Shown here: positions 4,415 through 48,917 of the stretch, piece after piece
Position numbering within the stretch: the stretch's first letter is position 1
Layout of the letters: each line of letters opens with the position of its first letter
Source of the DNA: Spirochaetaceae bacterium
GTDB taxonomy: Bacteria; Spirochaetota; Spirochaetia; Treponematales; Breznakiellaceae
Reading direction: 5' to 3'
Assembly (NCBI GenBank): GCA_031278215.1
Contig: JAITKV010000019.1
Span: 1 to 64,000 of the forward strand
DNA: 64,000 nucleotides
Position numbers and translations under genes: made by a program
Notes under the pieces: generated by a model
What the model was told of the DNA's origin: nothing
The model's input: only the letters and a program-made list of their open reading frames with translations
The model's database searches: none

Positions 4415-5395
4415 CTATGCCCGTTTCGCGTATTTCTTCATGTCGAAGAAGACGGCGATAATAATGATGCTTCCCTTAACCAGAAGCTGATAATACGAGT
4501 CGATGGACAAAAAGCTCATGCCGTAATTGATAAGCCCCATGGTAAATACGCCTATGATCATGCCCGTTACGGTGCCCACTCCGCCGTTCTGGGAAACTCC
4601 GCCGACGGTAACCGCGGCGATGGCGTCCAGTTCCATGCCGTTTGCCGTTAAGGCATTGGCCAAGCCCAGACGGCCCGCCTGAAGCACCCCGGCGCATCCG
4701 TAAAGGAGCCCGGCGTAAAGGTAAACGCACACCAGGTCCCGTTCCACATTAATGCCCGACACCCTGGCGGCCTGGGCGTTGCCTCCGATGGCATAAAAAT
4801 TCGTACCCTGCTTGGTATGTTTAAGCAGCACCCAGACAAGAATAGTGATGACCAAAACATAGATCCCCAAAAAAGGGACGGAAGAAAACAGGGAACTTTG
4901 GGCCAGGGCCTTAAAGTTCGCGTTCAAGGAACCCACAATGGCGGCCCGGGTATAGATCAGCTGAATGCCCCGGGCCAGGGACATGGTGCCCAGGGTGGCG
5001 ATAAAGGGGGGCAGTTTTCCATAGGCCACCAGGGTCCCGTTAAAAAGGCCGAAGACGCCGCCGGCCAATATGCCCGCCACAATGGGGACAAAAAGCGGGA
5101 ACGAGTGGCCGTAGTACAACGCCGATTCATAGGTGGGAATCTGGGCGAAAGACGCGGCCACCGACGCGCACAGGCAAACCACGTACCCTATGGAAAGATC
5201 TATGCCCTTGGTGATGATGATCATTCCCACCCCCAGGGATGCAAAGGCCCTGACAGATTCGGCAATAATCAGAGTTTTTATAGAAGCCCAGCTAAGGGCC
5301 TGCCCCCTGGTAAGTACGGCCAGTACAAAGACCAATACCACAAAAGTAACAAGGGTCGTATAGTCGCTTAAAATTTTCTTTACACTGACTTTCAT
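4415..5395 (-). CDS. mglC: Sugar ABC transporter permease, MglC/RbsC type
   Basis: 326 residues with 8-10 hydrophobic segments. It carries the family stretches GVGMIIITKGIDLSIG, GTMSLARGI, AIGGNAQAARVSGI and LDAIAAVTVGG, and ends with FDMKKYAKR much as E. coli MglC ends. It forms the inner-membrane channel for the importer whose ATPase and binding protein precede it in the same operon. The 97-base gap before the dehydrogenase gene contains only a weak hairpin. Transported sugar: probably fucose or galactose-like, judged from fucI and fucU nearby. Confidence 0.9.
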   Translation of the reverse strand: MKVSVKKILSDYTTLVTFVVLVFVLAVLTRGQALSWASIKTLIIAESVRAFASLGVGMIIITKGIDLSIGYVVCLCASVAASFAQIPTYESALYYGHSFPLFVPIVAGILAGGVFGLFNGTLVAYGKLPPFIATLGTMSLARGIQLIYTRAAIVGSLNANFKALAQSSLFSSVPFLGIYVLVITILVWVLLKHTKQGTNFYAIGGNAQAARVSGINVERDLVCVYLYAGLLYGCAGVLQAGRLGLANALTANGMELDAIAAVTVGGVSQNGGVGTVTGMIIGVFTMGLINYGMSFLSIDSYYQLLVKGSIIIIAVFFDMKKYAKRA

Positions 5396-14455: not shown

Positions 14456-14596
14456 TGAATTACTTTGCAGCCTCCGTTTTTTTAATTAGTTTCTATACTT
14501 ATTTTTCGCTATTTATAAAAATCTGTCAACAGCGTGGAGCACAATACGGACAAGGGCGCAAAAATCTTTGCCCCCCGGCCCCTTAAAAAAAACAGG

Positions 14597-14673
14597 GTTG
14601 TTTAAAAACAGCAAAATGCGGAACATTTTGCAAAGACCTGTTCCATAAGCAGCCGGGTTATTGAACAGGTTCC
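14597..14673. repeat. Dispersed two-hairpin repeat, family B, copy 1
   Basis: Starts GTTGTTTAAAAAC. Then a hairpin GCAAAATG/CATTTTGC (14611-14631) and a second hairpin with arms ACCTGTTC (14636-14643) and GAACAGGT (14663-14670) around CCGGGTTATT. It recurs at 29599-29704, with a compensatory C-G to G-C swap in the second stem. It lies in the 283-base gap between the MalT-like gene and the next gene, which otherwise holds only AT-rich sequence with no clear promoter. Confidence 0.8.
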
Positions 14674-21441: not shown

Positions 21442-21515
<74 letters not shown>

Positions 21516-21519
21516 AAAA

Positions 21520-21695
21520 TTGTTGTTTAGGGAACGGGGATGTCCGGGAAGTTTGTTAGTTTCCGGATATCCCCCGCATTTGCTTCTGTTTCGTTGAAAC
21601 CTTTGCAAATGCCGCACTAAAGAAGCCGTCCGAATAAGGTTTTTTAACGTTTCGGGCAGCCCCGTTCCCTTTAGAAGTTTTATTCTAAACGACAA
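21520..21695. other. 176-nt multi-stem structured element (ncRNA or mobile-repeat candidate)
   Basis: The ends pair: TTGTTGTTTAG (21520-21530) with CTAAACGACAA (21685-21695), continued by GGAACGGGG (21531-21539) with CCCCGTTCC (21660-21668). Inside are three further stems: ATGTCCGGGAA/TTTCCGGATAT (21540-21570), GCATTTGC/GCAAATGC (21576-21612) with an inner GTTTC/GAAAC, and GCCGTCCGAA/TTCGGGCAGC (21625-21660) with one mismatch. The whole forms a closed junction with three arms, directly after tRNA-Arg and before maf. No ORF of note lies in it. It could be a non-coding RNA read from the tRNA promoter, or a small inverted-repeat element. Confidence 0.55.
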
Positions 21696-29255: not shown

Positions 29256-29598
29256 TTGTGCCTCATCCGTTAAACCGATTATCTGTAAATCCGGTTAATT
29301 CACCGGTAAAGAAATCCCCCTCCACAGGGCCTTCTAGAGGTCAAGGAATAAGCGGTTCCTTAGGGAACCTCTGATTACATAGAGTCCATCAGCGCTTGCT
29401 TAGAAACAATACACCAACGGCGGCGCTAAATCAACCAAAAAACGCCGGCCCTTTCAATACCGGGTTTTACCGGCGCGGAGTCAAGAAAACGCCGGTTACA
29501 TGCTGCCAATCGCGTTTCCCTGTGTATTTGTTCATTGCGCAAATACCACATTAAAGCAGGCTGATTGCGCCAACGCAGCCGGCGAATTCTCAATTAGA
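29256..29598. other. Non-coding stretch between rpe and the dehydrogenase genes
   Basis: No gene seen. It holds a hairpin GGTTCC-TTAG-GGAACC at about 29353-29368, CCGGTTA repeats (29288-29307), and short GCCGG-containing pairings at 29430-29490. These look like decayed repeat material. The promoter of rpe should lie here, but no convincing -35/-10 pair was found. Confidence 0.5.
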
Positions 29599-29704
29599 GT
29601 TGTTTAAAAACCTCAGGTTTTAAACAAGAACCGCTAAAAAACAGCAAAATGCGGGGTATTTTGCAAGACGTGTTCAATAACTAACCGGGTTATTGAACAC
29701 GTCC
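29599..29704. repeat. Dispersed two-hairpin repeat, family B, copy 2
   Basis: Same order as the copy at 14597: GTTGTTTAAAAAC, a 30-base insert containing its own GGTTTT pairing, then ACAGCAAAATGCGG with the hairpin GCAAAAT/ATTTTGC (29644-29664), then a perfect 15-bp hairpin GACGTGTTCAATAAC / GTTATTGAACACGTC (29667-29703). The right arm overlaps the last codons and stop of the E1-beta gene. On the minus strand it would act as a strong hairpin just after that gene. Confidence 0.85.
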
Positions 29705-46097: not shown

Positions 46098-48917
46098 ATG
46101 TTAGACAAGTTCATAAAAGCCCTGTTTGGCTCTCAGCATGAACGGGACCTAAAGCGGTTGATCCCCCTGCTTCACCAGGTTAACGAAAAAGAAGCATGGG
46201 CCGCGGCCCTTTCCACCGAAGAATTCCCCGGCCTTACGGCCCTGTTCCGCCGCCGCTGCGAGGAGGGCGAAACCCTGGACTCCCTCCTGCCCGAGGCCTT
46301 TGCCCTGGCCCGGGAAGCAAGCCGGCGGATCCTGGGGGAACGGCCCTACGATGTGCAGGTCCTGGGTTCCATCGTGCTCCACCAGGGCAAGATCGTAGAA
46401 ATGAAGACCGGGGAAGGAAAAACCCTTATGAGCGTGGCCGCGGCGTACCTTAACGCCATCCCCGGCAAGGGGGTCCATGTGGTAACGGTCAACGACTACC
46501 TGGCGGGCCGGGACTCGGACTGGATGCGGCCGGTGTTTACGGCCCTGGGCATAACCGTGGGCAGCATCCTTTCCGACATGGACAACGACCGGCGCCGGGA
46601 AAACTACCGCTGCGACATTACCTACGGAACCAACAACGAACTGGGTTTTGATTACCTTAGGGACAACATGCGCTGGGATCTGTCCGGCCGGGTTCAGCGG
46701 GGCCATCCCTTCTGCATCGTAGACGAAATCGACTCTATCTTAATAGACGAGGCCCGGACGCCCCTTATTATCTCCGGCGCCGCGGAGGACGACACCTACA
46801 AGTACGCGGAGGTGGACAAGCTCCTTTCTACCCTGGAAGAGGTCCGTAAAAAAGAAGACGGCGACTACCCCGACGAAGCCCAGGGTGAAGAAGTAAGCGG
46901 GGATTATAAACTAAACGAAAAAAACAAGAACATTTCCTTTACCAACGCGGGGCTTGCAAAGATAGAAGAAATACTGCAAAAACGGAACCTTATTAAAGGC
47001 AACATCGTGGACGAGGAAAATTTTGAATATATCCACTACTTTACCCAGGCCCTGCGGGCCCATAAGCTTTTTCACACCGATGTGGATTATGTGGTCCAGG
47101 ACGGACAGGTCCAGATCGTTGACGAATTTACCGGCCGGATCCTCCACGGCCGCCGCTACTCCGACGGCCTTCACCAGGCCATCGAAGCAAAGGAACGGAT
47201 CAAAATCGCCCAACGAAACCGTACCCTGGCCACCATAACCTTCCAGAACTACTTTAGGATGTACGAGAAAATTTCCGGCATGACGGGGACCGCCGATACG
47301 GAAGCCATGGAATTTAACAAGATATACAACCTGGACGTGGTGGTAATTCCCACAAATCTTCCGGTGGTTAGAATCGACGAGGATGACGTGGTGTATTTAA
47401 ACGAGGCGGACAAGTTTAACGCCCTCTGCGACGAAATAGCGGCGGCCCACCAGAAGGGTCAGCCCCTTCTGGTGGGGACCGTTTCCATAGAAAAATCCGA
47501 AAAAGTTTCCGCCCTGCTTACCCGCCGGGGCATACGCCACGAGGTACTGAACGCGAAAAACCACGCCCGGGAAGCGACTATTATTGCCGAAGCCGGGGCC
47601 CGGGGAGCGGTTACCATCGCCACCAATATGGCCGGCCGGGGCACGGACATTAAACTGGGGGGCAGTCCGGAACACCGGGCCCGGAAACGGGCGGGAACCA
47701 GCGCGGCGGCGGAACAGTACGCCGCGGCCTATGAAGCGGAATATGCAAAATGGAAGACCGACTACGAGGAAGTTAAATCCCTGGGGGGGCTTTACGTTAT
47801 CGGTACGGAGCGCCACGAAAGCCGGCGGATTGACAACCAGCTGCGGGGCCGTTCGGGCCGCCAGGGGGATCCGGGGCGGTCAAAATTTTTTATTTCCATG
47901 GACGACGACCTGATGCGGCTCTTCGGGGGCGAGAATATCAAGAGGATCATGGCAAAAATGGGCATGGAAGCCGGTGAACCTATCTACCATCCCTGGCTTA
48001 ATAAAAGCATCGAAAAGGCCCAGAAAAAAGTGGAAGAGCGGAACTTTGAAATTCGCAAGCACCTTTTGGAATACGACGACGTTCTTAACCAGCAAAGAAA
48101 ATTTATCTACGAGCAGCGGGACGCGATCCTAAACGACGGGGAGCTAAAAAAACGGGTCAATGAAGCCACCGCCGGCATGATAAACGCCGGGGTGGAACAG
48201 TTTATCTCTACCCAGAAGCGCAATCCCGCCGAGGCCCTAAAGACCCTGCAAAGTTTCCTAAAAGAAAAATTCAACCACGTTCCCGTTCCGGGCGGGGATT
48301 CGGCAATTTCGTCCGGGGGAACGGTAAAGAACCCGGAACTGCTGGAAGAACAGCTTTTGCGGGATCTGGAAGAAGATATTGCCGCGAAAGAGGCCCTCCT
48401 GGGGGCCGAAACAATCAACGCCTTTATCAGGGCCCAGTACCTCCAGTTCATCGACCGCCAGTGGCTTGATCACCTGGAAAACATGGAATCCCTTAGAGAG
48501 GCGGTATACCTGCGGGGTTACGCCCAGAAAAATCCCCTCACCGAATACAAGCTTGAGGGTTTTGAAATTTTCGACACCATGATTGATGCCATACGGCAGG
48601 AAATCGCATCCCGGATACACCTGGTCCGGATCCACACGGAAGGAAACCGGGAAACCCGCCAAACGGTACGGATCCACTCCGCCAACCACGGGGCCGCGGC
48701 AAGTTTCGGGGGCGGCGGTCTCGCCGGCGGCGGCGCCGCGGGCGGCGGTCCTGCGGGCGGCGGCGCCGGCGGCGGCGGCGGCGCCGGGGGAGGCGGCCCC
48801 CCGGGCCGTTCCCAGCCGGAAAACGCCACCGTGGTGCGGAATTATCCCAAGGTGGGCCGTAACGACCCCTGCCCCTGCGGTTCCGGAAAAAAGTACAAAT
48901 ACTGCCACGGACGTTAG
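46098..48917 (+). CDS. secA: Preprotein translocase ATPase SecA
   Basis: 939 residues. Drives proteins through SecYEG. Motor motifs: [12 protein letters not shown] (Walker A), [40 protein letters not shown] and [10 protein letters not shown]. The C-terminal zinc tip [12 protein letters not shown] is intact. Before it lies a glycine/alanine linker (about residues 872-908) of repeated GGG and AGGG units, encoded by GC-rich trinucleotide-like sequence. Divergent from the lipoprotein gene. Confidence 0.97.

Follow-up and report, generated by a model that had tools for sequence, protein, structure and literature searches.

A three-hairpin structure beside a spirochaete tRNA-Arg gene is probably a MITE inserted into a hairpin

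The window, that is, the whole stretch of 64,000 nucleotides analysed here, belongs to a draft spirochaete genome of 2.1 Mb (G000), whose closest named relatives found are Treponema MAGs, and we focus on its positions 21520-21695, a 176-nt stretch that lies directly after a tRNA-Arg gene. An original prediction, made from the letters, had described an outer stem closing over three stem-loops, had held this much nested pairing to be unlikely by chance, and had offered two readings, a small RNA released from the tRNA transcript by processing or a short inverted-repeat element inserted beside the tRNA. The arrangement is as described, with the tRNA-Arg(ccg) ending at 21515 and the stretch starting four bases past it. 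On the plus strand, the stretch folds at -72.4 kcal/mol, compared with -42.6 ± 4.0 for 200 dinucleotide shuffles, none of which folds as well (z -7.5), and the fold of its complement has a z of -5.1. The left side of the outer stem consists of TTGTTGTTTA and GGGAAC (21520-21535) followed by GGGG, and its right side of CCCC and GTTCCC (21664-21669), a 16-nt bulge and then TAAACGACAA (21686-21695); the three stem-loops, HP1, HP2 and HP3, lie inside. The fold had not been recognised, and a search of Rfam (Rfam 15) indeed gives it no match at curated thresholds and, at relaxed thresholds, chance-level matches only. The stretch has two components: the repeated element, which covers 21536-21663 only, and flanking sequence, which makes up the remainder of the outer stem. 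The features are given below; the covariance model behind the scores was built from 12 copies, and its E-values are rough.

21442-21515, plus strand: tRNA-Arg (ccg), the upstream neighbour
21520-21529, plus strand: outermost left arm TTGTTGTTTA, flank outside the repeat
21529-21535, plus strand: AGGGAAC, left half of a palindrome taken as the target (the two halves match perfectly, in inverted orientation, across the junction; paired-flank test)
21536-21663, plus strand: putative mobile element of 128 nt with ends GGGGATGTCC... and ...GGGCAGCCCC (covariance model 118.9 bits, E 5e-25 for the window; repeat copies in the genome)
21536-21574, plus strand: HP1, the left-end hairpin, loop TTTGTTA (also occurs solo elsewhere in the genome)
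21576-21612, plus strand: HP2, the central hairpin GCATTTGC...GCAAATGC, with an inner stem (fold; aligned copies; covariation)
21613-21624, plus strand: conserved HP2-HP3 linker, CGCACTAAAGAA here and often CGCANTAAGGAAG including the first HP3 base (aligned copies)
21625-21660, plus strand: HP3, the right-end hairpin (fold; aligned copies; covariation)
21664-21670, plus strand: GTTCCCT, right half of the presumed target palindrome (evidence as for the left half)
21686-21695, plus strand: TAAACGACAA, the outermost arm on the right; flank, with AAACGACAA conserved in the sister genome G001 (alignment)
29596-29704, minus strand: second copy of the superfamily, of a different subfamily (GACGTGTTCAATAACCCGGTTAG...; 38.5 bits, E 4e-7; fold and alignment)
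14576-14672, minus strand: degraded third copy, of the same subfamily as 29596-29704 (model score low at 12.2 bits, E 0.3; shares repeats of 84-90% identity with 29637-29702; alignment)

The two minus-strand copies share a TGTTCAATAACCCGGTTA hairpin of the other subfamily. Elsewhere in the window, a GGC-rich unit of 15 bases is directly repeated along 48693-48815 and may encode a glycine-rich repeat.

The element belongs to a dispersed repeat family of the order. A DNA search of its own genome with the 176-nt stretch finds 28 places, the longer of which share approximately 21536-21663 and not the outer arms; a pattern of the HP1 loop and arms matches 37 times, compared with 5 in a reversed control, and the covariance model matches about 15 times. 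Among genomes sampled from the same taxonomic family, which are fragmented drafts, 88 of 150 are positive with this model. A phylum-wide draw yields 14 positives among 296 genomes, all 14 of them in the same order, and the element is also present in two other families of that order. Copies are 118-168 nt long, have no conserved frame, reach dozens per genome and are mostly intergenic (44 of 51). HP1 has a 16-bp stem with the loop TTTGTTA in the window copy and TCGGTTA in most relatives. In family f3, where several genomes are single contigs of about 2.8 Mb, HP2 differs considerably in sequence, and the architecture, loop and linker are recognisably the same. The ends are inverted repeats: left and right ends of the same copy are 73% identical over 12 nt, compared with 63% for mispaired copies, and a scan with a TIR pattern gives matches in the genomes and none in the control. 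Many contigs of G003, G129, G133 and others (L427, L435, L439, L447, L452) start or end within an element copy, and identical copies seem to break short-read assemblies there. The element was not found in phage and plasmid collections or in three exact-pattern scans of viral contigs. Our literature searches likewise found no description of this repeat family, and this spirochaete repeat is thus apparently an undescribed family of tiny non-coding mobile elements.

Evidence for mobility comes from the flanks. We sorted copies by end type into groups A to F, the window copy falling into group C (GGGG-type ends), and permitted small boundary shifts in the duplication and paired-flank tests, the same in the controls. 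First of all, in group A (GTGTCTGTCC ends), perfect direct duplications of at least 6 bp, mostly TANNTA, flank 26 of the 33 copies, with 2.9 expected from mispaired flanks. Second, group D has 4-bp duplications in five of nine copies, compared with 0.6 expected. Third, group B nearly always has AATT on both sides (once GATT/GATT), a near constancy that makes the mispairing control uninformative. Group E, at five copies, is too small for the duplication test, and groups C and F show no clear duplication excess. These duplications in sister lineages are fresh, which argues that the family is a transposing one.

Shorter derivatives occur as well. In 490 kb of G003, 6-bp duplications flank 4 of 14 solo hairpins or remnants; the flanked ones are hairpins 38-39 bp long and a single remnant of 30 bp. 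This remnant (L439:18309-18338, G003:C14) consists of both ends only and retains the 6-bp duplication TAACTA. The simplest reading is that solo hairpins arise by internal deletion between repeated arms after insertion, and it is also possible that they move independently. Hairpins of about 40 nt standing alone, and inverted pairs of them within one element, are what one would see in REP, BIME and REPIN sequences (PMC3733652, PMC2817692), and a REP-associated tyrosine transposase (RAYT) could in principle have mobilised the family as a REP/REPIN-like repeat. Our element differs, however, in having target duplications, which disfavour this reading, and its aligned flanks lack a constant GTAG or CGTC tag at the base of the hairpin; we give such an origin very little credence.

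The flanks of the groups that show no duplication excess have a different property. In group C, left and right flanks pair with each other above mispaired controls, only 4 of 2000 shuffles reaching as high, and the same holds for group F (family f3), where none of 2000 does so and part of the signal is an A-run facing a T-run. In this test, orthologous pairs were counted once, and copy L251, whose palindromic flanks probably come from a contig end, was left out. No flank-to-flank pairing excess is present in the remaining groups, including those that make duplications. The GGGG-type copies thus combine, statistically, flanks that pair with each other and no excess of duplications. The window copy is the best case in group C, with AGGGAAC before the element and GTTCCCT after it, a perfect 7-bp inverted match at the junction.

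Insertion into a palindrome is a published behaviour of the IS1182 family: IS1272 and TnSha1 choose hairpins as targets, frequently terminators, and leave no duplication (PMC4923244, PMC5678879), as groups C and F appear to do. The window's own genome encodes an IS1182 transposase on contig G000:C5 (NF033551, 406 bits with a cut-off of 270), although the element (L400:1-1687) is cut by the contig start and its left end lies beyond the contig. Its right end, GGGGCTGTCTAAGAAGTTT, is able to fold back on itself and agrees at 16 of 19 positions, by eye, with GGGGCTGTCCGAAAAGTTT, the form in which HP3 usually ends in this genome. In the window copy, the right end has diverged further (GGGGCTGCCCGAAACGTTA). 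A second IS1182 element, in G309, has 16-bp GGGGCTGTCC-type repeats with hairpin ends and a gene now in two frames. The ends of both elements match GGGGCTGTC and are themselves hairpins, and GGGGCTGTCC-type terminal repeats with hairpin ends are thus a likeness between our element and the IS1182 copies of G000 and G309. Taken together, the paired flanks of group C without duplication, the hairpin-targeting signature of IS1272 and the IS1182 copy in the same genome lead us to read the outer stem as a split target hairpin; most likely, the outer stem of the 176-nt stretch is a target hairpin split by the insertion, extended by the GGGG/CCCC tips of the element.

We thus favour, on what the sequences offer and as probable, the explanation that the 128-nt element is a non-coding MITE moved in the window's lineage by an IS1182-family transposase into a hairpin. 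HP1 and HP3 would be its ends, each formed where a terminal inverted repeat pairs with an inverted copy of itself close by, and the conserved HP2 would lie between the two. An IS1182-family transposase, such as the one in G000, would have recognised ends of the GGGGCTGTCC type and placed the element in a hairpin, AGGGAAC/GTTCCCT, that lay downstream of tRNA-Arg, the loop of the target hairpin being removed or displaced on insertion, as published for IS1272 (PMC4923244). The closed structure would then be the split target stem around three element hairpins. At the present site, a simple scan calls no terminator.

The neighbourhood in relatives bears on the target. In the sister species G001, a different three-hairpin member (L415, G001:C84, about 5148-5328) lies directly after the same tRNA-Arg, and it belongs to the same subfamily as the window copies at 29596-29704 and 14576-14672. 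The tRNA-Arg tail may thus be a repeatedly used insertion site, which fits a hairpin target, the two cases being those of the window and of G001. The AAACGACAAG of the outermost right arm is kept in G001, which points to this arm, TAAACGACAA, being old flank. No clean element-free orthologous site was seen in G001, L048 or L049; L048 stops 14 bases past the tRNA, and in L049, where the tRNA is turned the other way round, inspection by eye recognised no element beside it.

What counts against the involvement of IS1182 is that, in sister lineages, the same core comes with duplications of 6 bp or 4 bp. A transposase other than IS1182 could have moved the MITE in the window's lineage as well, in which case the ends would resemble each other by coincidence or convergence, and G003 and G024, which have many copies, match none of PF01609, PF13751 and PF00665. 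This alternative has to set aside the hairpin ends of the G000 and G309 elements that match GGGGCTGTC and a hairpin-target signature that is that of IS1272 (PMC4923244, PMC5678879), and we regard it as unlikely. We found no mobiliser for the groups that make duplications, G003 and G024 being incomplete drafts searched for these three families only; both genomes are rich in fresh copies despite the lack of a match to these large transposase families. Furthermore, 490 kb of G003 contains no end pair at insertion-sequence spacing, G064 has no transposase in the one candidate interval read, and the ORF clusters beside copies, which carry no family annotation, include no obviously recurrent transposase. 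A candidate insertion sequence with group-A ends in G100 was rejected, since its 1.6-kb end pair is two elements flanking a LacI-like regulator gene.

The element also differs from the IS1182 family itself in having no transposase gene, in its conserved HP2, loop and linker, and in having related lineages that make duplications. Neither HP2 nor the HP1 loop nor the linker can be made out at the ends of the two IS1182 elements examined, which gives no support to derivation by simple internal deletion. Between groups, the arms are 44-59% identical, compared with 62-72% for the loop, HP2 and linker, while within groups arms and core are conserved to a similar degree; several genomes, G026 for example, contain more than one end type. 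A core that is more alike between groups than the ends, together with mixed end types, suggests that the core persisted while the ends and the insertion rule changed. A bolder and rather doubtful extension, which we offer tentatively, is that the core (loop GGTTA, HP2 and linker TAAGGAAG) is an independent passenger module that repeatedly acquired new ends and was carried by unrelated transposases, with a change from hairpin targeting to 6-bp or 4-bp duplication. If this is true, the family would be a structure-defined passenger element and not a decayed insertion sequence.

The remaining reading is that of a functional structured RNA, a small RNA or UTR element, either cut from the tRNA-Arg transcript or mobile, with selection acting on the fold at the RNA level. 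The three nested hairpins with their z of -7.5 speak for it, as do two-sided changes in 44 of 47 pairs: paired substitutions in relatives, which the original prediction had proposed to look for, are abundant, and 94% of cells are paired, where shuffles reach 73% and slid structures no more than 50%, in an alignment that was fitted to the covariance model and leans toward it. However, the arms of HP1 and HP3 are terminal repeats and inverted copies of them, likely transposase sites, so that joint change is expected in any case and without RNA. HP2 also covaries though it is not a terminal repeat, and its covariation is the one part that transposase sites do not account for; a putative role as a DNA cruciform is possible. 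Non-Watson-Crick cells are balanced between G-T and A-C (7 and 8 in the HP2 interior, 13 and 14 in HP3) and lean to A-C inside HP1, and this balance gives no sign of selection on one of the RNA strands. The complement strand has the better fold in 122 of 150 copies. Orientation to neighbouring genes is random (10 with, 9 against), and terminal repeats and target duplications are at odds with a functional RNA. A functional RNA is thus quite improbable, and the 176-nt fold is most likely not a processed RNA. Of the two readings originally proposed, processing from the tRNA-Arg transcript finds no support, given the many unrelated loci, the random orientation and A-C mismatches about as frequent as G-T pairs, while the inserted inverted-repeat element is supported by the genome-wide repeats, the terminal inverted repeats, the target duplications of sister lineages and the paired flanks here.

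Our understanding of bacterial MITEs, reviewed with RUP, BOX and SPRITE among those named (PMC10969869), accommodates a short, non-coding, mostly intergenic element with terminal inverted repeats and many copies. The present family is unlike them in its three-hairpin plan across an order, in a core that varies less than the ends from lineage to lineage, and in its two insertion modes. A striking 'unknown RNA' is accounted for as mobile DNA, and an order-wide MITE family is added in Treponema and relatives. The case also carries a caution, in that covariation alone does not prove RNA, much of it here being able to stem from inverted transposase sites. Furthermore, the 30-39-bp solo derivatives raise the question of the minimum size of a mobile hairpin or remnant. 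The same core with different ends and insertion rules in sister lineages provides a natural comparison of how target choice, hairpin or duplicated site, follows the transposase.
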